From Pyrinomonas methylaliphatogenes (GTDB lineage: Bacteria; Acidobacteriota; Blastocatellia; Pyrinomonadales; Pyrinomonadaceae), in NCBI RefSeq assembly GCF_000820845.2, contig NZ_CBXV010000004.1, positions 372,001 through 436,000 of the forward strand: DNA of 64,000 bases, written 5' to 3'. The notes under the pieces were generated by a model. That model did not search any database, was not told the origin of the DNA, and worked only from the letters and a program-made list of their open reading frames with translations. The translations under genes were made by a program, and so were the position numbers. This document shows positions 570 through 36,601 of the stretch, piece after piece. Position 1 is the stretch's first letter. Each line of letters starts with the position of its first letter.

Positions 570-640
570 TCGCTTCCTCCGTCGTTTCAGCGTGATGAGA
601 CAGCCTTGGGCTAAAGCATAAATCCATTCGCCTTCTCCAT

Positions 641-788
641 CAATGGACGCCGATAGAGCCCTCGGAGATATGAAGAGAGTAAGCCGAACCATTATCTCGC
701 CTTCAATGGACGCTGAAGAACAGTGCTCAAGGGCGAAGGAGAAACGCCCAACATTAAATTATCTCGCCTTCAATGGACGCTGAAGAAC
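641..788. repeat. Repeat-spacer-repeat locus 1 (CRISPR-like, two perfect plus one degenerate copy)
   Basis: A 31-bp unit occurs identically at 691-721 and 758-788, separated by a unique 36-bp spacer (722-757). A third, degenerate copy upstream shares the 10-bp core CAATGGACGC at 641-650, giving core spacing of 63 and 67 bp. The unit contains a short inverted repeat, CTTCA-8 nt-TGAAG. On the minus strand the unit starts GTTCTTCAGC. This is the geometry of a tiny CRISPR array, but no cas gene is in the window and only one clear spacer exists. It lies in the 346-bp gap before the paa operon. Confidence 0.75.
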
Positions 789-3415: not shown

Positions 3416-3561
3416 TCTGCCCCTGGTGCGGATCGCGCGAAGTGGAGCGTCTTGGCGCGTTCGGCCCGCAGTTGATGACCGAGCAGTATCTGTGTCTTCG
3501 CTGTCGCAGCCCGTTTGAGCGCATACGTCAGCGAAGCGATTCCGAGAGGGAATCGCGCTGA
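3361..3561 (+). CDS. Detached PaaD C-terminal zinc ribbon
   Basis: The 66-residue product starts at GTG inside the end of paaC (55-bp overlap). It contains CPWCGSREVERLGAFG and YLCLRCRSPFERI, i.e. CxxC-(about 26)-CxxC with the spacing of the C-terminal zinc ribbon of PaaD. In common PaaD proteins this ribbon is fused to the DUF59 domain; here the two parts are encoded at opposite ends of the operon, with the PaaB-like genes and paaC between. The function inferred is to complement the DUF59 protein in metal-centre assembly. Confidence 0.75.
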   Translation: MGGLGSTRTPLEEEGEALICPWCGSREVERLGAFGPQLMTEQYLCLRCRSPFERIRQRSDSERESR

Positions 3562-3563
3562 CG
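3526..3563 (+). terminator. Strong hairpin at end of paaD2
   Basis: The sequence forms a stem of CGTCAGC plus GCGATTCC pairing with GGAATCGC plus GCTGACG around a GAGAG loop, followed by ATCTTTATT. It contains the stop codon of the zinc-ribbon gene. It could partially terminate or attenuate paa transcription ahead of the TetR gene, or stabilise the paa mRNA 3' end. Confidence 0.6.
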
Positions 3564-3574
3564 ATCTTTATTGT

Positions 3575-4213
3575 GTGGCGGATTCATCGAAGGTGGCGCA
3601 TCTAAGGTTAGCACGTCGAAGCGCTGAATTCACCGATAAGCAACTTAATTTGCTGAGAGCGACCTACAGGATATGCGGCGAGCGAGGGCTGCGCGCGTTG
3701 TCTTTGCAGCGTGTGGCTGAGGCCGCGGGCGTCAGCAAGGGGGCGATCCTTTACCACTTCAAAGATAAGGAAGAGCTGTTGCATGCCACTATGAAGTGGG
3801 TGTTGATGCGCGTGGCCGAGCGCATCCGTCAAGCCGTTGACCGGACGATCGCGCCGCGCGAGAAGATCGCCGTCGCCATCGATGCGATCTTCATCGGTCC
3901 GGAGGCGAATCGCCGTTTCTATCTCGTCTACTTGGATCTCATCGGATTGGCGGCGCGCAGCGAAAGGTTCGCCCGCCTGATCGCGGATATGCGCGCGATC
4001 GAAGAGGGCGTGTATGCGGAAATCGTGCGAGTCGGGGCGGCTCAAGGGGCGTTTCGTGTTACGGATGTCGACGCTGCGGCCAAAGTGGTGCGCGCCATCA
4101 TCGACGGCCTCTTCATCGAGTGGTTGCAAGAGGCCGATTGGCGGGCGATGCACGAGCGTTACCGAACGCTCTGTAAGCGATCGGTGCTGGCCTACTTGAG
4201 TCACGCCGATTGA
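3575..4213 (+). CDS. TetR-family transcriptional regulator, probable repressor of the paa operon
   Basis: A roughly 212-residue TetR protein. The helix-turn-helix is GLRALSLQRVAEAAGVSKGA followed by ILYHFKDKEELL, the canonical TetR_N ending. The C-terminal ligand domain is helical with no catalytic motif. The start is uncertain: an ATG at 3515 lies upstream inside the hairpin-bearing end of paaD2, so GTG at 3575 (or 3593) is preferred. Position directly after the paa genes, and a TetR-like 6-2-6 palindrome in the paa promoter, suggest phenylacetyl-CoA-responsive repression; both are inferences. It is convergent with ppc. Confidence 0.8.
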   Translation: MADSSKVAHLRLARRSAEFTDKQLNLLRATYRICGERGLRALSLQRVAEAAGVSKGAILYHFKDKEELLHATMKWVLMRVAERIRQAVDRTIAPREKIAVAIDAIFIGPEANRRFYLVYLDLIGLAARSERFARLIADMRAIEEGVYAEIVRVGAAQGAFRVTDVDAAAKVVRAIIDGLFIEWLQEADWRAMHERYRTLCKRSVLAYLSHAD

Positions 4214-4239
4214 GTCTTCGGTCCGCCGCGGCGCGCGCG

Positions 4240-7185
4240 TCACCCTGTATTTCGCATGCCCGCGGCGATCCCGTTGATCGTCAGCAAGATGGCATAGAGA
4301 AGTTTATCTCGATCGATGTCGCCGCACTTCGCTTCGTCCCCCGTTTCGCAAGCGCGCTTGCGCGCCAAAAGCTCGACCTGGAAATAGCTCAACGGATCGA
4401 CGTATGGGTTACGCACGGCGATCGAGCGTTGTAGTACGGGAAGATTGTCGAGCAACTGCTTCTCTCCGGTGATGGCGAGAAGCATACGGCGCGTGCGCTC
4501 GTATTCGTCGGCGAGCATGTGGAAGATGCGTCGTCCTAGCTTCTTGTCGGGCGTGCGCGCCGCATACTGACGGGCGATCCGCATGTCGGCTTTGGCGAGT
4601 GCCATCTCGATATTCGACAGCGTGCTGTGGAAGAAGGGCCATTCGCGGTACATCTCGCGCAGCAGGCGAAGGTTGGCGCGCGGGCTTTGGCGCAAGAACT
4701 TCTCGAGCGCAGTGCCGACGGCCAACCATCCGGGCACGAGGTGTCGGCTTTGCGTCCAACCGAAGACCCATGGGATGGCGCGCAGATCGTCTAGGCTGCG
4801 CGAGCCTGCCTTACGTTTCGCCGGACGCGAACCGATACGCAAATGCTGGAGTTCTTCGATCGGCGTCGCTTGGGCGAAGTAGTCATAGAACCCTTCGGTC
4901 TCGCGCACAAAGCGGCGATAGGCGGCGAAGGCTTCTTCTGAGATCTGCTCCATCACCTCTTTCCACTTAGCGAGCCGTTGCTCATCTATATCTTCGTGGG
5001 GAAGGCTGGCCGCGATCGTCGCTGCCGTGGTCGTCTCAAGGTTGCGCAAGGCGATCTCAGGTAGTCCGTACTTTGACGAAATGACCTCGCCTTGTTCGGT
5101 GATCTTGATGCGCGCGGCGACCGTGCCGGGCGGTTGTGCGAGGATGGCTTCGTGCGTTGGCCCGCCGCCGCGCCCGATGCTCCCCCCTCGCCCGTGGAAG
5201 AGTCGCAGTTCGATCTCGTGCGCGCGCGCCACCTCGCAGAGTCGTTCCTGCGCCTTGTAAAGCTCCCAACTCGAGGTCAAGATCCCGCCATCCTTGCTGC
5301 TATCCGAGTAGCCGATCATGACCTCTTGCAGTCGGGCGTGCGCGGCGATCTGTCGCTGGTAGATCTGATTTTCGAATAGACGGCACATCACCGTAGGAGC
5401 GCGCCTGAGGTCATCGATCGTTTCAAAGAGCGGGACGACGCCCAACCTGGTGAGCAGCCGCGGCGCTTCTGCGCCGTCGCTCTCCCATTGCCACAATCCA
5501 GCTTGTTTAGCTAAGACGAGGACGGCCAGAAGATCGCTCACGTTGCGCGTCATGCTGACGATATAGGTGCGAATGGCGCGCGGGCTGATCTCGTCCAAAG
5601 CCCGCCGTGCGACGCGGAAGACGTTGAGCGTTTCGGTCGTCTCGTCGCTGAAATGCGCGTCAGGGCTGATGAGCGGGCGCGGTGTCGAAAGCTCGTCGGT
5701 GAGCCACGCGACGCGCTCTTCTTCGCTCATCTGCGCGTAACTCGGAGTTATCCCGAGCGAGCGCGTGATCTCGTCCAACGCAGCCGTGTGACGATCGCTG
5801 TGCTGTCGAAGATCGAGCGTCGCCAGATGCAGATCGAAGGCGGCAACTTGGCGCATCAAACGATCCACTTCGCGCGCCGCGTGGACGGCTCGATTGGCTC
5901 GTAAACTGTCGCGCAGCACGCGCAGGTCTTCCCACAATTCATCTCCGGTGCGATAGACGCTCGCCGCGTTCGATTTGGATTTAGTGAGCGCCGCGATGAT
6001 CGGCAGCCCCGGTCGCGTCGAGATGAGCGTTTGCGGCGATTCGATGCGCAGCGCCGTCGCTAGATCGCGATTGCGCCTGAGGGTGTTCTCCAAGCGCACG
6101 TAGATGTACGAAAGCTTCTGCCTGTAAGGCTCTTCTGGATTTCGTCGGTTAATATCTTCAGCGGCTTCCGGTAGTTCGCGCGCGTCCTTCGCCAGCGAAG
6201 CGCGCAGCTCTTCTGTCGGCGGCGCGAAGCGCGCTGATTCGCTCAGCCGTTTGCTCAGTTCGGCGACGGCGGCTAAGTATTTGCGCAACACTAAACGTTG
6301 CTGTCGCCGCAAGGTCTCCCACGTCACTTCCGGTGTGACGTAGGGGTTGCCGTCTCGATCGCCGCCGATCCATGAGCCGAAGCGGATCGGCGCGGCACCG
6401 TCGCGCAAACGCACGCCGGGGAAATATTCGGCGAGTTGGCGTTCGAGCTCTTCAAGCAGAGTCGGCAACGCATCGAAAAGCGTCGTGTCGAAATAGTAGA
6501 GGCCGTTGCCCACTTCGTCGAGCACCGTCGGCTGCGTTTGCCTGACCTCGTCCGTTTGCCAGATCATTTCGATCTCGGTCGCCAGTTGTTCGCGCAACTG
6601 TTCGCGCTCGCGCCGCGTCAGATCCTTCCGATCGAAAGCGGCGAGCAGATCGGCGACGCGCCGATGCTTCATCAGGAGCGTCCGGCGCGCAGCTTCGGTC
6701 GGATGGGCCGTCATTACGGGCATGATCTCCAGGCGGTCGATCACCTCTTGCATCCGCGCGCGCCGTCTCTCGGCGCAATCATCGCCGGTCGCCGAGAGGC
6801 GGCGGAAGGTATCGGCGAGCGATCCGCGTTGCGGATGATCCGGCGTGTGCCGTTCGTAGTAGCGTTTACGTCGGATGCGGTGATACTGCTCGGCGATATT
6901 GACCAACTGGAAGTAGACCGAAAAGGCGCGAATTACGCCGATGGCCTCATCGAGGTCGAGGCTGCGGATCAGTCTCTTCAACCGGCGTTCATCCGCCAGC
7001 GAATATTGTGCGCGCAAACGTTTGCAGAGTAGGCGCACCTGCTCTTCGGTCTCGAAGAGGCGTTCGCCGCCGAGCCTTCTGAGCGTTTCGCCGAGTAGAT
7101 CGCCCAGCCTGCGAATGTCAGCTCTAAGGGGAGCATCCTTAGCCCGTCTCCCCGCCTGTTGAGACGCTGCTGTCGCTGTGCTCAT
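4240..7185 (-). CDS. ppc: Phosphoenolpyruvate carboxylase
   Basis: A protein of about 980 aa, typical for bacterial PEPC. Visible signatures are VMTAHPTEAARRT (catalytic His), FGSWIGGDRDGNP, GYSDSSKDGG, FHGRGGSIGRGGGPT and the C-terminal NGIAAGMRNTG. The reaction is carboxylation of phosphoenolpyruvate to oxaloacetate, an anaplerotic step feeding the TCA cycle. The start was set at ATG 7185; a GTG at 7212 in the same frame would add nine residues. A 220-bp structured region separates it from menG upstream on the same strand, so it may have its own promoter. Confidence 0.95.
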   Translation of the reverse strand: MSTATAASQQAGRRAKDAPLRADIRRLGDLLGETLRRLGGERLFETEEQVRLLCKRLRAQYSLADERRLKRLIRSLDLDEAIGVIRAFSVYFQLVNIAEQYHRIRRKRYYERHTPDHPQRGSLADTFRRLSATGDDCAERRRARMQEVIDRLEIMPVMTAHPTEAARRTLLMKHRRVADLLAAFDRKDLTRREREQLREQLATEIEMIWQTDEVRQTQPTVLDEVGNGLYYFDTTLFDALPTLLEELERQLAEYFPGVRLRDGAAPIRFGSWIGGDRDGNPYVTPEVTWETLRRQQRLVLRKYLAAVAELSKRLSESARFAPPTEELRASLAKDARELPEAAEDINRRNPEEPYRQKLSYIYVRLENTLRRNRDLATALRIESPQTLISTRPGLPIIAALTKSKSNAASVYRTGDELWEDLRVLRDSLRANRAVHAAREVDRLMRQVAAFDLHLATLDLRQHSDRHTAALDEITRSLGITPSYAQMSEEERVAWLTDELSTPRPLISPDAHFSDETTETLNVFRVARRALDEISPRAIRTYIVSMTRNVSDLLAVLVLAKQAGLWQWESDGAEAPRLLTRLGVVPLFETIDDLRRAPTVMCRLFENQIYQRQIAAHARLQEVMIGYSDSSKDGGILTSSWELYKAQERLCEVARAHEIELRLFHGRGGSIGRGGGPTHEAILAQPPGTVAARIKITEQGEVISSKYGLPEIALRNLETTTAATIAASLPHEDIDEQRLAKWKEVMEQISEEAFAAYRRFVRETEGFYDYFAQATPIEELQHLRIGSRPAKRKAGSRSLDDLRAIPWVFGWTQSRHLVPGWLAVGTALEKFLRQSPRANLRLLREMYREWPFFHSTLSNIEMALAKADMRIARQYAARTPDKKLGRRIFHMLADEYERTRRMLLAITGEKQLLDNLPVLQRSIAVRNPYVDPLSYFQVELLARKRACETGDEAKCGDIDRDKLLYAILLTINGIAAGMRNTG

Positions 7186-7298
7186 CGCTTCGCCATCCGG
7201 ATGATCGCGCACCGAAAGCCGAATTTTACCGGAATGTTGTTAGCAGTAGGAAGCGGGGAATTCGAGAGAGTCTTCTTCGGTGAGAACCTGAATAAAAA

Positions 7299-7446
7299 GA
7301 TCGCAGTTCAGAGCATCCGATGCCCCGACCCGATAGCCCCGACTACTATCGGATCAAACATGCTTTCGCGCGGACCTCTGAACTGCGATCGAAGGTTGCG
7401 CTGCGACGCAACCGAACTCTGGGGAGTAGGCTCTCAGCGTACTCCC
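7299..7446. repeat. Cluster of three nested hairpins between menG and ppc
   Basis: Perfect 15-bp arms GATCGCAGTTCAGAG (7299-7313) and its complement (7376-7390) enclose further inverted pairs, CCGATAG/CTATCGG (7330-7336, 7346-7352) and ATCCGAT/ATCGGAT. Two more stem-loops follow: GGTTGCG/CGCAACC (7394-7413) and GGGAGTA/TACTCCC (7422-7446), the last overlapping the menG stop. It may be a MITE- or REP-like palindromic element acting as terminator for menG, or a structured leader of ppc. No coding potential. Confidence 0.6.
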
Positions 7447-8162
7447 ACGTGAATCGCCGCGATGCCCCCCGTCAAATTCCGATAAGAGACCTTTTGAAAA
7501 CCCATCTGCTCCATCATCTTCGCTAGCTTCCGCTGATCGGGGAAGTTGCGAACCGAGCGTGGCAGATACTGGTACGCTTGCCGATCGCCGCTGATCCACC
7601 CGCCGATCCTTGGAAGCAGATGGTCGAAGTAGAGGTTGAAGAGCGCGCGAAATCCGGGCACCTGTGGGTGCGAAAACTCTAGGATCGCGATCATCCCGCC
7701 CGGACGCAGCACGCGCCGAAACTCCCCTAATCCCGCTTCAACGCTCGCCAGATTGCGCAATCCGAAAGCGATGGTGACGATATCGAACGTCGCATCGGCG
7801 AAAGGCAACCGCAGCGCATCGCCTTCGATCAGTGGAAGCGGCAGATCGGCGACCGCCGCTTTGCGCTTGGCGAGCGTCAACATTGGCCGACAGAAGTCCA
7901 GACCGATGACGCGCGCTTCGACTTGGCTGGCGATGGCGAGCGCGAGGTCGCCCGTCCCACAAGCGACATCCAGCACGCGCGACCTCGCCTGACCCGCCGC
8001 TTCGCGCACACGCTCGACCACCGCTTGACGCCATCCTCGGTCGAAGTTGGCCGACAGCAGATGATTTAAAAGATCATAGCGGGCGGCAATGGCTTCAAAC
8101 ATCGCACGAACCCGCCGTGCGTGCTCCGTTCGCGCCTCAATCTCTTCGTTGACGTTCGTCAC
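7434..8162 (-). CDS. menG: Demethylmenaquinone/ubiquinone C-methyltransferase (MenG/UbiE)
   Basis: A 242-residue class I SAM methyltransferase. It shows the UbiE family signature YDLLNHLLSANFDRGWR, the SAM-binding motif VLDVACGTGDLALAIA, IGLDFCRPML, and FGLRNLASVEAGLGEFRRVL followed by LRPGG. Near the C-terminus lie SVRNFPDQ and NLTGGIAAIHVG, which are diagnostic of UbiE/MenG. It methylates demethylmenaquinone (or the ubiquinone precursor). Acidobacteriota generally use menaquinone, so MenG is the more probable role, as an inference. Confidence 0.92.
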   Translation of the reverse strand: MTNVNEEIEARTEHARRVRAMFEAIAARYDLLNHLLSANFDRGWRQAVVERVREAAGQARSRVLDVACGTGDLALAIASQVEARVIGLDFCRPMLTLAKRKAAVADLPLPLIEGDALRLPFADATFDIVTIAFGLRNLASVEAGLGEFRRVLRPGGMIAILEFSHPQVPGFRALFNLYFDHLLPRIGGWISGDRQAYQYLPRSVRNFPDQRKLAKMMEQMGFQKVSYRNLTGGIAAIHVGVR

Positions 8163-8228
8163 GATAATCCTTGCGATGCGGAAAATGGTTGCGGGAATCT
8201 TGCGATTGACTTAAATAATCGCACTCGA

Positions 8229-9587
8229 TCAGTTCGATTTCTCCGTCGGTATCGTCACGCGCACGATTTCAACCTCACCGCGATTCGCCATCGCCGAGCG
8301 AAGGGCTGCCCCATCGCCGAGAGCGACGGTGACCGCCGGCGCGTCTTTGAATAAGCGTATTGCCACCTTCTGCAGATCAGCGGGCGTGAGCGCGGCCAGA
8401 CTGCGCGCTTCATCTGAAGTCGTCACGCCATATGTCTCTTCGTCGAGCCAGAGATCGGCTAAAGCGTCCGCGCTGCTGAGCGGGCGGTTGATCGTCGAAA
8501 GGCGCTCGCGCCGCGCGCGTTCAAGCTCTTCGTTCGAAGGTGGGGTTGCCGTAAGATCGCGTATCACTCTTTGAGCCGCATCGAGGGCCGGGGCGAGATC
8601 GGCGGCGCGCACGGACGCGCCGAACGTGAAGAGTCCAGAGATCATGTGCGCTTCGTGGCGCACGAAGGATGCGGTGCGCGCGAGCGCCGGAAGTTCGTTC
8701 GTCCATCGCGTGCGGGCGATGAGCGCGAGGATCTCCGCGGCGGGGCGGTCACGATCGCGACGCGGCAGGCCGCGCAGGGCGAAGCGCACCTCAGCTGTCT
8801 CCGCTCCGGGCAGATCGAGGATCAGTGGGCGCACGTTGGGCGCTTCGGGCTGGCGGAAGGTGGCCGGCACGCGAGTTTCGCTCTTGCGCCACGGGCCGAG
8901 CAATTGGCGGAAAGCGCGCATCGCACGAGTTCGATCGACGCCGCCGATCATTACGAGCGTCGCGTTGTTCGCGTTAAGGAAGCGTTCGCGGGCGAAAAGG
9001 AGATCGGCGCGCGTAATGCGTGCGAGCGACTCGGCGGTGCCGATGATCGGTCGGCCAAGCGGATAGCTGCCGAACAGGCGCGCGGCGGTCGCGCGATCGG
9101 CGATCAGATTGGGGGCGACGCTCGTCCCGCGCAAAAGTTCGAGACGCGCTTCGCGCAGCCGCGCAAAGGTCGCCTCATCAGGCGGTTGATTCAAAACGGC
9201 GTTTCGCAATAACTCGACGAGCCTTTCGAAATCATCTTTCGGGGCGACGAGCGTGATCTCGATCAGATCGTAATCGGTCACGACATCCAATCGCCCATCG
9301 AGTTCTTCACTGACATAGCGGCGCGTCCCGGGATCCGGGAAGAGGCTGTCGGCGAGAAGCGCCATCGTTCCCTCTTTGCCGGCTAGATCGAAGATCGCGC
9401 CGCTGTGAATGCGCAGTTTCAAAAGGACGTTCGGATCTGCGGGTCTGTATTGCAGGAGGATCTTCAGCCCGTTCAGCAGTTGCTCGCGCTGCGGTTCGAT
9501 AGAGTTCTGATAAGCGTATGCGGACAGAATCGGCCAGCCGCAGATCGTGAGCAAGAGAAGAGCTGTGCTAAATGAAATTCGCCTCAT
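8229..9587 (-). CDS. M16 (insulinase-like) family protein without the zinc motif
   Basis: A 452-residue protein with signal peptide (MRRISFSTALLLLTICGWP, then ILSAYA). The fold signature of M16 peptidases is present: an N-terminal half ending in YPLGRPIIGTAESLARITRA and a C-terminal half with STINRPLSSADALADLW. However, the HxxEH zinc-binding motif expected around residues 60-70 is replaced by IFDLAGKEGTMALLADSLF, with no HxxEH anywhere. It is therefore probably a non-catalytic partner of an active M16 peptidase, as known for M16B heterodimers. No active partner is adjacent in the window. Confidence 0.75.
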   Translation of the reverse strand: MRRISFSTALLLLTICGWPILSAYAYQNSIEPQREQLLNGLKILLQYRPADPNVLLKLRIHSGAIFDLAGKEGTMALLADSLFPDPGTRRYVSEELDGRLDVVTDYDLIEITLVAPKDDFERLVELLRNAVLNQPPDEATFARLREARLELLRGTSVAPNLIADRATAARLFGSYPLGRPIIGTAESLARITRADLLFARERFLNANNATLVMIGGVDRTRAMRAFRQLLGPWRKSETRVPATFRQPEAPNVRPLILDLPGAETAEVRFALRGLPRRDRDRPAAEILALIARTRWTNELPALARTASFVRHEAHMISGLFTFGASVRAADLAPALDAAQRVIRDLTATPPSNEELERARRERLSTINRPLSSADALADLWLDEETYGVTTSDEARSLAALTPADLQKVAIRLFKDAPAVTVALGDGAALRSAMANRGEVEIVRVTIPTEKSN

Positions 9588-9812
9588 CTTCCGATTCCGA
9601 TCCGTCGTGAAACTCTGCTCGTGGTGCCCATCCTTTCGGGAGAGCCTCGCTTTCGACCGCTTGCGCCTCCCGAAGGGAAGGCCAACCTGATGGCCTGGGG
9701 GAGCGGCAGACAGTTTAGAGACGCTTTTTCGTCGGCGTCAACCGTTCACGCCATCGGCGCATCCAAGAACGTGGCTGAAAAAGGCTTGTACGCGCTCATC
9801 GTCGTCTTGAGG

Positions 9813-9818
9813 TATAAT
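9813..9818 (+). promoter_or_regulatory. Consensus -10 box upstream of the TonB gene
   Basis: A perfect TATAAT lies 92 bp before the tonB-like ATG. A TTGTAC at 9786-9791 is 21 bp away, longer than the ideal 17, so the -35 is weak. This is the only promoter-like signal seen in the 323-bp gap 9588-9910 between the divergent M16-like and TonB genes. The rest of the gap holds a few short GC-rich inverted repeats (around 9665-9705) and no gene. Confidence 0.45.
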
Positions 9819-9910
9819 CGCATTCGGTTTTGCGATTGGGTCGGGATGAGTGAAAGTTCGAAATTCGCCGCACCTTTACATTTCCCCGCGTGCGGTTATA
9901 AGGTGGAGCC

Positions 9911-11233
9911 ATGAAGAGATGTCCGACTTGCCAAGAGGAGTTCGCCGATCAGTTCAGCTTCTGTCCCGTCGACGGCACTCCGCTCAACGGTCTACATGCG
10001 GTGAGCGCGCTTACGGCGCTCGAGGAAGATACGGTGAACGTCGCTGCCGACTCCGAAACTCGGACGTTCACGCAGGCAGGAGAGCAGTCGGTTTCGCCCG
10101 TTAGCGCGGAGAGCCGCGAGGTCCCCGAGCTGCACCTGACAATTATCGACGACATCGGTTTGTGGCAACGCTTGGTGGGTGAGCTGCGTGAAGTCGCCCA
10201 TCAATCGCAGCTTACGTGGCCCGAGTTCAAGCGTGATCCGATCGGCTTCATCCGGCGCTCGATCGCCGGCTATGGGCTCTTATTGTGGCGTTTCTTCTCG
10301 CGCCCGAACGTCGCGCTGGCGGTGACCTCCGCCTTCGTCATCGTCTTCTCGCTGATAGCGTTGGTCTTGGTCCTCGATCGCGCGCGCGGGCGATTGGTCG
10401 CCGAGCAGGTGCGCGACGATCTCGAATTCAAGGGATTGATCAATGCGGAGATCCCGCTAGAGGAGGAGCAGAAGCCGAAGGATCAAGGCATCGGGACCGG
10501 AGAGCAGGGGAGAGCCGGTTTCAATAAAGGGCGCGGCGAAGGTTCAAAGCCTCAGTTCGAACGCGCTGGTGGCGGTGGCGGTGGCGGACAACAGGAAACG
10601 ATGCCCGCTCAGCAAGGCAAACTCCCCCCGCCCGCTCCGATCCCCGCGCCCATCCCGAAAGAGCCGCCTAAGTTGAAAGAGCCGCCTAAAATCGTCGGCG
10701 GGATGGATATCGATCCGGCGCTTTACCGCGATATCCCTATGCCTAATTTCGGCGATCCGCGTTCGAATTCGCGGATCTCGTCCTCCGGTCCAGGAACCGG
10801 CGGAGGCATGGGGTCGGGTGAAGGGACTGGCGTCGGTTCCGGTAGCGGCGGCGGTTACGGTCCGGGACGCGGCGGCAATATCGGCGGCGGTGATCGCAAC
10901 ATCGGCGGCGGCGGTGGGGGCGGCGGCACAGGCGATGATGTCGGCCCGTTCCCGGCGAGCCGCGTGACGCAAAGAGCGCGAATACTATCCAAGCCTGAGG
11001 CGCGCTACACGGAAGAGGCGCGCAAGAACAACATCACGGGCACGGTCGTCCTACGCGCCGTGCTCGCGGCAAACGGTGAGGTCACCAATATCGTGCCGAT
11101 TCAGCGTTTGCCCTACGGGCTGACGGAAAGCGCGATCGCGGCGGCAAAGCAGATCAAATTCATCCCCGCGATGAAGGATGGGCGCCCTGTTTCGCAATAC
11201 GTCAGGCTGGAGTACACCTTCACCATCTACTAA
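9911..11233 (+). CDS. TonB-like energy transducer with N-terminal zinc ribbon
   Basis: A 440-residue protein. Residues 1-25 form a zinc ribbon (MKRCPTCQEEFADQFSFCPV, CxxC-CxxxD/G type). A single transmembrane helix is near residues 130-155 (NVALAVTSAFVIVFSLIALV). It is followed by a long Pro/Gly-rich linker with poly-Gly runs and a C-terminal TonB domain (KPEARYTEEARKNNITGTVV, then FIPAMKDGRPVSQYVRLEYT). TonB proteins couple ExbBD proton-motive energy to outer-membrane receptors. The unusual part is the cytoplasmic ribbon and about 120-residue N-terminal extension, a potential regulatory input. No exbB/exbD is adjacent. Confidence 0.85.
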   Translation: MKRCPTCQEEFADQFSFCPVDGTPLNGLHAVSALTALEEDTVNVAADSETRTFTQAGEQSVSPVSAESREVPELHLTIIDDIGLWQRLVGELREVAHQSQLTWPEFKRDPIGFIRRSIAGYGLLLWRFFSRPNVALAVTSAFVIVFSLIALVLVLDRARGRLVAEQVRDDLEFKGLINAEIPLEEEQKPKDQGIGTGEQGRAGFNKGRGEGSKPQFERAGGGGGGGQQETMPAQQGKLPPPAPIPAPIPKEPPKLKEPPKIVGGMDIDPALYRDIPMPNFGDPRSNSRISSSGPGTGGGMGSGEGTGVGSGSGGGYGPGRGGNIGGGDRNIGGGGGGGGTGDDVGPFPASRVTQRARILSKPEARYTEEARKNNITGTVVLRAVLAANGEVTNIVPIQRLPYGLTESAIAAAKQIKFIPAMKDGRPVSQYVRLEYTFTIY

Positions 11234-13904: not shown

Positions 13905-14153
13905 ATGATCTCGGCGATAAACCGGACCACCGTCGCCGCCGAATTGGGCCGGTTGGGCTTCGACGTGGAGCTGTTCGGTTTGGGCGCGCAGAAGGACGAA
14001 GTTTACGTCCGGTCCTTGGCAACCGGGATCGCAGATGCCCTTCGGCAGATCTCGGCCCTCGCCGCTATCGATGAGTGGAAAGCCAAGGAGTTGACGGATA
14101 AGGAAGCCGATCCACAGCCGTTGAAACGAAAAAACAACCGATCACCACTTTAG
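13905..14153 (+). CDS. Small hypothetical protein
   Basis: The 82-residue product reads TTVAAELGRLGFDVELFGLG, then AQKDEVYVRSLATGIADALR, QISALAAIDEWK and a basic tail ending KRKNNRSPL. No family was recognised. The last 12 codons and the stop are the first copy of a 38-bp repeat that recurs 74 bp further on, so the original C-terminus may have differed. No convincing ribosome-binding site precedes the ATG. It may be a remnant of the same decayed gene as the fragment just upstream. Confidence 0.4.
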   Translation: MISAINRTTVAAELGRLGFDVELFGLGAQKDEVYVRSLATGIADALRQISALAAIDEWKAKELTDKEADPQPLKRKNNRSPL

Positions 14154-14349
14154 GCCTTCCTCTCGCGCCCAATATCTTTTCCCATCTGCCGCAGTTGAAA
14201 CGAAAAAACAGCCGATCATCGTGTTAGGAAAGCTCTCGCTCTGGCAAGCAGTTTCGAACGACGATTATTGTGAGAAGCTTCCGGCTCCGAGCGTTGGGAG
14301 TTAGGCTTTGCTCTAGCAAGCAGCTTCGAACGACGATTATTGTGGGAAG
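14117..14349. repeat. Repeat-spacer-repeat loci 3 and 4 (degenerate four-copy array)
   Basis: Copies at 14117-14154 and 14191-14228 match at 32 of 38 positions with a 36-bp spacer (14155-14190). Copies at 14238-14277 and 14310-14349 match at 37 of 40 with a 32-bp spacer (14278-14309). The two families share features, e.g. CGATCATCGTG in the first and CGATTATTGTG in the second, and TTAGG marks at 14150, 14224 and 14301. All four may therefore be one degenerating array. The stretch 14154-14412 contains no gene. Confidence 0.65.
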
Positions 14350-18442: not shown

Positions 18443-18982
18443 TCATAGGTGACGATTGGTCAATCGGCGGGCCAGACGCCGCCGAACGGCGAACTGGCGA
18501 CGCCTTTGGGCCCTCTCACCGAAGTTGTAATCGTAGATCAACATCAGAATCGTACCGCCGATCGTCGTCGCGATCAATTTGAAAGCTAGCGTCTCAGCGA
18601 ACGGGTAGATCAGCGGTTGGTTGAAAATAGCGTGCAAGAGCGCATAGACGATCGCATCGAGCGCCGTCGCCCCCGCCAGGACGAGGATGCGCATCAAGGG
18701 AGTGTTGAGCATAACGCGCGTGCTGAGCGCGGCGATGATGTAAGCGATCAAGGTTCGGCTGAACCCCCCAGCGCCGAGCAGTCCGCCGCTTAGGGCATCG
18801 ACCGCGAGTCCGATCGCGCCGCCGATCACCACCGCTTGTACGGCGTCGTACTTGAGGGCGTAGTGAACGACGACGATGAGCGGAAGGTCGAGATAGACCG
18901 AGGGCGGCCACACTACGCGAAGGGCCGCTTGGATGGCGACGACAAGCGCGATGGCGATGGCCGCTCGTATCTTTATGCTCAT
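18443..18982 (-). CDS. mreD: Rod shape-determining protein MreD
   Basis: A 179-residue hydrophobic protein with five or six predicted membrane helices (e.g. AAIAIALVVAIQAALRVVWP and PLIVVVHYALKY), position and topology of MreD. It lies between mreC and mrdA. The first eight codons and their 5' flank (18960-18990) are the downstream member of a perfect 31-bp duplication. The upstream copy also carries an ATG at 19050, which opens only a short dead-end frame. The true start at 18982 is the one continuing into the MreD helices. Confidence 0.88.
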   Translation of the reverse strand: MSIKIRAAIAIALVVAIQAALRVVWPPSVYLDLPLIVVVHYALKYDAVQAVVIGGAIGLAVDALSGGLLGAGGFSRTLIAYIIAALSTRVMLNTPLMRILVLAGATALDAIVYALLHAIFNQPLIYPFAETLAFKLIATTIGGTILMLIYDYNFGERAQRRRQFAVRRRLARRLTNRHL

Positions 18983-19058
18983 TTCGGAAATTTTGTCGCT
19001 CTCACTGCTTCTGCTTGTGAAGCAAGTGCCGCTCGTATCTTTATGCTCATTTCGGAAA
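18960..19058. repeat. Repeat-spacer-repeat locus 5, duplicating the mreD start
   Basis: A 31-bp unit, identical at 18960-18990 and 19028-19058, flanks a unique 37-bp spacer (18991-19027). The unit contains the mreD start codon and first codons. Flanking bases differ on both sides, so the match ends sharply at 31 bp. It fills the mreC-mreD junction. Removing one unit would put mreD 17 bp after mreC. Confidence 0.9.
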
Positions 19059-29292: not shown

Positions 29293-29864
29293 TCATGGCC
29301 GTGTCTCCTCGGGTTCTTCGAACAGGCGCAGATACGGTTCGAAACGTAATCGTCGGTTGCGGGCATAGCCCGTAATCTCTCTGAGCAATCCGATGTCAAC
29401 CAAGCGGCGAACAAGGTCGTTGGCAGCAGGCGTTGTGGTGTTCAACCAGTCGCGCACGATATTCACCGTGACGATGGGGTGGTCGAAGAGCTTCTCCATG
29501 ACGCGATGTCCGTTCGCCGCTGCTCGCCCGGGCTTTTCGGTGATCCTAGCTCGGTACTCTTCGCACATGCGCAGGATCGCTGCTGCTTGCTCGGTTGCCT
29601 GCCGGCTCACTTCGGCAACACCGCGGAGGAAAAAGCCCAGCCATCCTTCCCGATCTCCCTCGTCGCGCACAGCCTGAAGCCGGTCGTAGTATTTGGCGCG
29701 ATGCCGTTTGAAGTAGTACGAAAGGTAGAGGACCGGTCGGGATAGAAGGAGCGTGCAGCGAGTCAAGCCAACGCTCAGCCAACAGACGAAAGGTAGAGGA
29801 CCGGTCAGGATAGAAGACCCTTTTCTATCAGCAGAAAGGTAACCAGCAACCGCCCGATACCACG
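29293..29864 (-). pseudogene. Broken fic-like gene, split by a repeat-spacer insertion
   Basis: The 3' piece (29293 to about 29766) encodes the C-terminal half of a Fic-family AMP-transferase: RPVLYLSYYFKRHRAKYYDR followed by LQAVRDEGDREGWLGFFLRG and a C-terminal helix-turn-helix-like end. The catalytic HPFxDGNGR motif is missing. Upstream (29812-29864, minus strand) the same protein resumes as GIGRLLVTFLLIEKGLLS, the conserved stretch that directly follows the Fic motif. Between them is exactly one 31-bp duplication plus a 37-bp spacer. The upstream copy also has an Arg codon turned to stop (CGA to TGA). The N-terminal half, including the catalytic His, is gone. Confidence 0.8.
29718..29816. 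repeat. Repeat-spacer-repeat locus 6, inserted in the fic-like gene
   Basis: Copies at 29718-29748 and 29786-29816 are 31 bp with one mismatch, separated by a 37-bp spacer (29749-29785). On the coding (minus) strand both copies code LLSRPVLYLS. The upstream fic frame GIGR...EKGLLS reads straight into copy B, and the downstream frame YYFKRHRA straight out of copy A. So the ancestral gene had one copy, and a 68-bp unit was added. This is the clearest evidence that the pairs arise by insertion with target duplication. Confidence 0.93.
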
Positions 29865-30007: not shown

Positions 30008-30667
30008 TCAGCGTATCGGCCCTTGATGCCGAGGTGGACTGATTCTCTCTTTCCAAGATGCAACTTTGTTGACGAAGAACGCTTTGATTTCAGACCAGCG
30101 ACTTTCCACCGTTTCTTGCTCCTGCATATTTTCCGCATCATCGAAGTATGTCAAAGCTTTGATTAAGATGCTGGAATTGTAGTTCGGGTATTTCTTTTCG
30201 GCCATTTGGATCAAATCATCGATCTCCCAATCGTGTGTTTCCATCAGATACCAAAGATCGTAGAAGTCTTTCTTCTCGCCACGTTGCGCGACTGCCACCG
30301 CTTTCATGCAGGCGATGTCTTTGTCGCTCGCCAGTTTGATGCCAACAGATGGCAACGTTTCGGTTTCCGCAAGCAGATCATATGGGTATTCGAAGAAAGA
30401 GATCTTTGTTCGTTCAATTCCGATCGTCAGCGTATGAGAAGCTTCATAGATGGTCTCGAAATGTGGACTGATCCGGGCGAGCTCTCCTTTGTAGAAGGAT
30501 GTGTTAAGCTCCATGCCCGGCAGAAGGAAGAGATCCAGGTCCGTAGAAATGCGGTGCTGATACTTCAGAAGCAATGCTGTTCCACCCGCCAAATAGACCT
30601 CAGCGGAAAGGGGGCATGTTCCAAGCAGCGCGAGGATTCTCCGCAAGCGCTCGATTGTACTCTTCAT
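30008..30667 (-). CDS. AbiEii-like nucleotidyltransferase toxin
   Basis: The 219-residue protein has the type IV AbiEii motif set. It has YLAGGTALLLKYQHRISTDL followed by DLF (GG-x9-10-DxD), an EYPYDLLAE strand, KDIACMKAVAVAQRGEKKDF and YDLW. AbiEii proteins are nucleotidyltransferases that inhibit growth during phage infection unless controlled by AbiEi. The gene overlaps the preceding small gene by 68 bp, an unusually long overlap that implies tight coupling. The downstream side abuts the fic remnant (about 140 bp). Confidence 0.75.
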   Translation of the reverse strand: MKSTIERLRRILALLGTCPLSAEVYLAGGTALLLKYQHRISTDLDLFLLPGMELNTSFYKGELARISPHFETIYEASHTLTIGIERTKISFFEYPYDLLAETETLPSVGIKLASDKDIACMKAVAVAQRGEKKDFYDLWYLMETHDWEIDDLIQMAEKKYPNYNSSILIKALTYFDDAENMQEQETVESRWSEIKAFFVNKVASWKERISPPRHQGPIR

Positions 30668-36124: not shown

Positions 36125-36601
36125 ATGGGCGAAATTATAGCCCTCGATCTGACGGTTCACAACTTCGTTGATTGGATCGTGGCTTCCCCTACCTGGGCTA
36201 TCTTCTCTGCGACTTTGCAGGGTAGACGATCGAGATTGATTCGCGTTCTTTGCGGGCTGATAGAAGTGGAACGGCGCGGACTACCGCGTAGACGATCGAG
36301 ATTGATTCGCGTTCTTTGCCTCACCGTATGCAAGGACTGGGAGACTTTTCTCGGCATGTTCGATGGGCCGATTACTTTTGAGATCAGCGACCTGAAGGTC
36401 ACGACGGGCGAGGACGTGGCCTTTAGTCACAGCATCCAGCACTTCGCTGGAAAGTTGAAGAACGGTAGTCCGCTCGACGTTACGGTGCGCGTGACGGACG
36501 GTTATCGCAGGGTCGGAGGCAAGTGGCTAATCGCGCACGAGCACGTTTCCGTGCCAGTTGATCTTGAGACTGGAAAGGGCGACTTATCGTCGAAGCCGTA
36601 G
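36125..36601 (+). pseudogene. SnoaL-like (NTF2-fold) protein with replaced N-terminus
   Basis: From about 36330 on, the product is a recognisable SnoaL-like domain: KDWETFLGMFDGPITFEISD, HSIQHFAGKLKNGSPLDVTV and KWLIAHEHVSVPVDLETGK. The N-terminal third of such proteins (usual length about 140) is missing. Instead the frame holds unrelated sequence with the repeated phrase RRSRLIRVLC, encoded by repeat locus 7. No ribosome-binding site precedes the ATG. Probably a truncated relic of a nutritionally unessential enzyme; the frame happens to be open because the repeat period is 66 bp. Confidence 0.65.
36222..36319. repeat. Repeat-spacer-repeat locus 7
   Basis: A 32-bp unit is identical at 36222-36253 and 36288-36319, with a 34-bp spacer (36254-36287). 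Outside the unit the flanks differ at once. It lies just 5' of the intact SnoaL-like segment. Confidence 0.9.

Follow-up and report, generated by a model that had tools for sequence, protein, structure and literature searches.

A repeat–spacer unit in a fic remnant of Pyrinomonas methylaliphatogenes has the format of an off-target CRISPR integration

A 68-bp repeat–spacer unit within fic sequence of Pyrinomonas methylaliphatogenes K22 very probably arose in a single event, in which a CRISPR adaptation complex integrated a spacer off target. It looks like one of roughly 300 misplaced CRISPR insertions across the chromosome, which suggests that a CRISPR integrase is able to litter and mutate the genome of its own host at large scale. 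The unit lies in a stretch of 64,000 nucleotides (contig C4:372001-436000), hereafter the window, of a genome assembled in 16 contigs and 3,788,560 bases. In the accessible text of its genome paper, strain K22T is described as a thermophilic acidobacterium isolated from geothermal soil (PMC4644332).

Structure of the fic unit

The components of the unit and the fic sequence on either side are as follows (positions within the window).

29293–29717, minus strand: SoFic-like fic gene, 3′ portion, encoding the C-terminal Fic segment and HTH_13
29718–29748: target copy 1, the duplicated 31-nt target, which on the minus strand runs on into the fic 3′ part
29749–29785: inserted 37-nt spacer, with a single occurrence in the genome
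29786–29816: target copy 2, in which one mismatch gives a stop in the fic frame
29817–29864, minus strand: short fic fragment (GIGRLLVTFLLIEKG...) upstream of the unit, the remaining 5′ part being absent

The two 31-nt copies are identical at 30 of 31 positions and are spaced 68 apart. On the minus strand, the fic frame ...GIGRLLVTFLLIEKGLLS runs into the 29786–29816 copy, where the single mismatch creates a stop, and the frame LLSRPVLYLSYYFKRHRAKYYDRLQ... exits via the 29718–29748 copy. Because 68 mod 3 = 2, the reading frame is shifted across the unit, which bears out the original prediction of a frameshift combined with a stop in one copy.

A genome search placed the core of the fic repeat at no location beyond its two copies, and the spacer had no second genomic match at up to 3 mismatches. 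With no other copy in the genome, a reading of the fic repeat as a member of a repeat family was dropped. The fic repeat differs from both native CRISPR repeats, so it does not fit recognition by a native system through the same sequence. The fic remnant is adjoined by an AbiEii-type nucleotidyltransferase gene (window 30008–30667).

Evidence for insertion

The two fic parts were each matched to homologues on their own. Six intact Fic homologues from the same class carried GNGRIGRLL...LLSxPxLYLSxYFK, or close variants of it, unbroken, and in solved SoFic-type structures LLSxPILYLS aligned directly to the part downstream of the unit; the short upstream fragment gave no alignment to the solved structures. 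Since the intact homologues are uninterrupted, carrying the stretch once and lacking the 68-bp unit, the target was originally single-copy, and 37 nt of new sequence together with a second target copy were gained, in agreement at the protein level with the predicted 37-bp insert and 31-bp target duplication. That the unit is instead ordinary coding sequence of this fic family, as the frame open downstream through the first copy might hint, is contradicted by its absence from the six homologues and the SoFic structures, by the frameshift and by the stop, and can safely be set aside.

The Fic-like sequence upstream of the unit extends for only about 18 codons. Both the HPFxxGN active-site segment and the N-terminal part are absent. 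The gene is thus a 3′ remnant, and the insertion need not have been what first broke it. The proposed insertion into a fic gene is supported, but the gene is otherwise not intact. The proposed search for an uninterrupted allele at the DNA level found none among 60 relatives, and the fic site alone is thus no proof of insertion, contrary to the earlier claim that this unit proves the pairs to be insertions.

Direct evidence that such pairs are insertions came from two other sites. In a congeneric Pyrinomonas metagenome-assembled genome (MAG; G001), a single repeat and no spacer were found at two pairs of the K22 locus L041. At the first break the K22 sequence aligned as 3476-9174 and 9209-11008 with a 27-nt overlap in the subject, which thus has a single copy; at the second it aligned as ...12191 and 12230... 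with a 36-nt subject overlap. Two other pairs were common to K22 and G001. One of these lies in a near-identical region, which may stem from recent transfer or assembly contamination. Separately, L051:13087-20000 had 99–100% identity to G001 contigs C821 and C171, compared with 70–94% elsewhere, which may likewise reflect transfer or assembly contamination.

Orphan units across the genome

The window contained further pairs with the geometry of the fic unit and unrelated repeats.

691–788: unit with a 36-nt spacer between 31-nt repeats at 691 and 758, and a third, degenerate copy at ~634–653
14107–14349: two adjoining long-class units, with spacings of 74 and 72
18960–19058: unit with identical 31-nt repeats, a 37-nt spacer and a spacing of 68
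36222–36319: unit with identical 32-nt repeats, a 34-nt spacer and a spacing of 66

The last of these forms an in-frame 66-bp insertion in a SnoaL-like ORF (36125–36601), directly before the Pfam match.

To 1.62 Mb, or 43% of the K22 genome, a search for repeat–spacer–repeat pairs was applied; this sample consisted of chosen, non-random stretches and included both cas loci. Once native arrays and the most obvious tandem repeats had been removed and overlapping pairs merged, 141 orphan pairs with spacings of 58–76 remained, nearly all with a repeat of their own, although a few are low-complexity coding repeats (L046:6021, L050:16880). Triplet-shuffled K22 DNA (275 kb) yielded 0 pairs at spacings of 55–78, which excludes chance and confirms the predicted fic repeat–spacer pair as real. 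Away from the cas neighbourhoods the density was about 80 per Mb (126 pairs in 1.57 Mb), and extrapolation gives a genome total of roughly 300 orphan units.

Direct-repeat pairs were scarce at most spacings but piled up at 65–69 and 70–74, with start-to-start peaks at 66–67 and 72–73. Elsewhere the spacing histogram contained almost nothing except multiples of the native array periods and a small excess at 60–61. This excess may tentatively represent a third, I-E-like format, as in a five-repeat array at L065:4248-4512 with a ~29-nt palindromic I-E-like repeat and ~32-nt spacers.

Pair midpoints fell predominantly outside larger ORFs (106/141, against 17.6 expected), which fits a loss of genic insertions and survival of harmless ones. 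Many of the orphan repeat copies were degenerating. Several targets had three repeats enclosing different spacers (L066:17220, L044:6931, L076:9363 and L083:900-1154, as well as window 634–788, where one copy is degenerate). Locus L083 (C5:1-20000) holds a dense cluster of orphan pairs adjoining a second segment of the 30-nt-repeat array, and about five ~30-nt repeats, unlike either native repeat, lie beside the type III-A array at L013:19085-19370.

Size classes and the native CRISPR systems

Two cas1/cas2 sets are encoded in the K22 genome. The first belongs to a type I-B operon (cas6-cas8b-cas7-cas5-cas3-cas4-cas1-cas2) whose array has a 30-nt repeat and 35–38-nt spacers. The second belongs to a type III-A csm locus, in which a cas4-cas1 fusion and cas2 adjoin a 36-nt-repeat array with periods chiefly of 72 (18 occurrences), 73 (15), 71 (6) and 74 (6).

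The orphan pairs fell into two corresponding classes. The median repeat length was 30 nt at spacings of 65–68 and 36 nt at spacings of 71–75 (p=4.5e-8), and these medians equal the lengths of the two native repeats; the median spacer length was 37 in both classes (p=0.15). In the fic unit (31+37), the duplicated target is close to a native repeat in length and the insert falls within the native spacer range. The unit is thus laid out like a Cas1-Cas2 product, in line with the original suggestion of a CRISPR connection. Judged by size, the fic unit would fit the type I-B system and the 36+36 class the type III-A system with its Cas4-Cas1 fusion.

Off-target Cas1-Cas2 integration has been reported to prefer guanine (PMC6895254). 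In the 30-nt class, G was outermost at 48 of 88 repeat ends, compared with 30% expected (p=1.3e-6), and at the right end T was also favoured at the next positions, as in the native GTT...AAC ends. The 36-nt class had no clear guanine preference (22/56), and the fic unit itself is without the terminal guanine preference.

The N-terminal domain of the type I-B Cas1 (L015:8624-9985, contig C9) contains an insertion of roughly 100 residues that is acidic and probably disordered; this insertion is shorter in two other Blastocatellia and absent in two Poribacteria relatives. An orphan pair with 38-nt repeats and a spacing of 74 is located between cas1 and cas2 of the same operon (L015:10157-10268).

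Origin of the spacers

The suggested search for a protospacer and PAM of the 37-bp fic spacer gave no source in the genome, phages, plasmids or IMG/VR. There was no significant match in the phage collection, plasmid matches all had E of at least 3, and no exact 24-mer core was present in IMG/VR. The 24-mer search of IMG/VR was equally negative for three other window spacers, and no protospacer with a PAM was found for any of these four.

Matches to the sampled chromosome were found for 3 of 111 orphan spacers, each over 31–33 nt with one mismatch and without spanning the whole spacer. Such partial matches would be consistent with a related strain as the source of the DNA, and the spacers are presumed to derive from foreign DNA. 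Self-derived spacers as a rule were rejected on these 3/111 matches, obtained against 43% of the genome, and on the lack of any for the fic spacer. In the 36-nt class, a stretch of 17 nt is common to one orphan spacer and one spacer from the native 36-nt array.

Proposed mechanism and alternative explanations

In the favoured model, Cas1-Cas2 loaded with a prespacer of ~36–37 bp would attack chromosomal fic DNA, at points about 30 bp apart on its two strands, rather than the leader–repeat junction of an array. Two staggered strand transfers, one repeat-length apart, followed by gap filling that duplicates the target, would give the arrangement repeat–spacer–repeat. The integrase would fix both spacer length and target length, and two target sizes with one spacer size would follow from this.

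The same repeat–filler–repeat geometry could arise through DNA repair alone and without a mobile element, if nicks about 30 bp apart led to a staggered break, fill-in duplication and capture of filler before joining. The single-copy empty sites fit this route equally well. However, repair would not be expected to yield two discrete target sizes (30 and 36) and a single fixed filler size, matching the native CRISPR formats, or terminal guanine, or the reuse of one target with new fillers, and we consider it improbable.

It is somewhat less probable still that the units are functional mini-CRISPRs, maintained by selection for immunity or regulation. The three-repeat targets with different spacers and the two pairs common to the congener would be compatible with maintenance, but many copies are degenerating and the mostly non-ORF locations point to survival of harmless insertions. 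The repeats are also unrelated to the native ones, so crRNA processing is not expected.

A very small MITE-like mobile element with a target duplication of ~30 bp would account for duplicated targets at dispersed, mostly intergenic sites, but the ~37-nt inserts have almost no mutual similarity in an all-against-all comparison and duplications of 30–36 bp far exceed the target duplications usual for transposons, making this explanation hardly credible. An insertion sequence or MITE was rejected on the same finding of unrelated inserts.

Under the preferred reading of off-target Cas1-Cas2 integration, it is likely that the Pyrinomonas Cas1-Cas2 has lost, or never had, tight leader specificity. 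Adaptation would then mutate sites throughout the genome and seed new CRISPR loci, with about 300 fixed integrations per genome, contributed by two systems and in some cases growing into new arrays.

Relation to known systems

Non-canonical spacer integration has been described in E. coli (Nivala, Shipman and Church 2018, as summarized in passages of PMC11788318 and PMC9456107). As far as those passages describe it, the likeness is that spacers enter chromosomal sites outside arrays; the E. coli events followed Cas1-Cas2 overexpression, whereas those in Pyrinomonas are natural, occur at about 80 per Mb in a wild-type genome and have two target sizes. Purified Cas1-Cas2 of S. thermophilus, like the 30-nt class in Pyrinomonas, prefers guanine at non-array sites, but that system is in vitro, type II-A and probably produces half-site products, unlike the Pyrinomonas units (PMC6895254). 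Ectopic acquisition within arrays also involves integration away from the leader-proximal site, but it uses authentic array repeats in place of the unrelated chromosomal sequence used in Pyrinomonas (PMC7999890, PMC7316486). Orphan or mini CRISPR arrays have the same repeat–spacer–repeat layout and sizes, but the Pyrinomonas repeats vary by site and are non-native.

The accessible text of the K22 assembly paper reports 15 CRISPR repeats and notes that CRISPR abundance may have contributed to scaffold junctions; within that text no mention of the dispersed pairs was found (PMC4644332). Most knowledge of off-target integration comes from laboratory work, in which it figures as a by-product suppressed by cells, and such natural abundance appears to be undescribed in the open-access literature searched. 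With its many fixed events, a natural pair of genomes provides a statistical record of integration-site choice. This record extends to the control of target length by two integrases in one cell, the birth of new CRISPR loci and the mutational cost, with mostly intergenic survivors and one unit in a fic remnant. The origin of arrays and the confinement of Cas1-Cas2 to the leader thereby become directly testable in a culturable thermophile.

Distribution among relatives

Outside K22, orphan pairs of the same format were found in the congener G001 (6 in 72 kb). No orphan pair occurred in 177 kb from five relatives lacking cas1, against about 14 predicted from the K22 density. In five relatives that carry cas1 but lie outside the genus, about 200 kb contained none, save for a simple-sequence cluster in G046, so the presence of Cas1 is not sufficient. 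The trait seems specific to Pyrinomonas. Near related cas1 genes in Poribacteria, isolated pairs of similar size were observed at L249:13132 and L251:6349.
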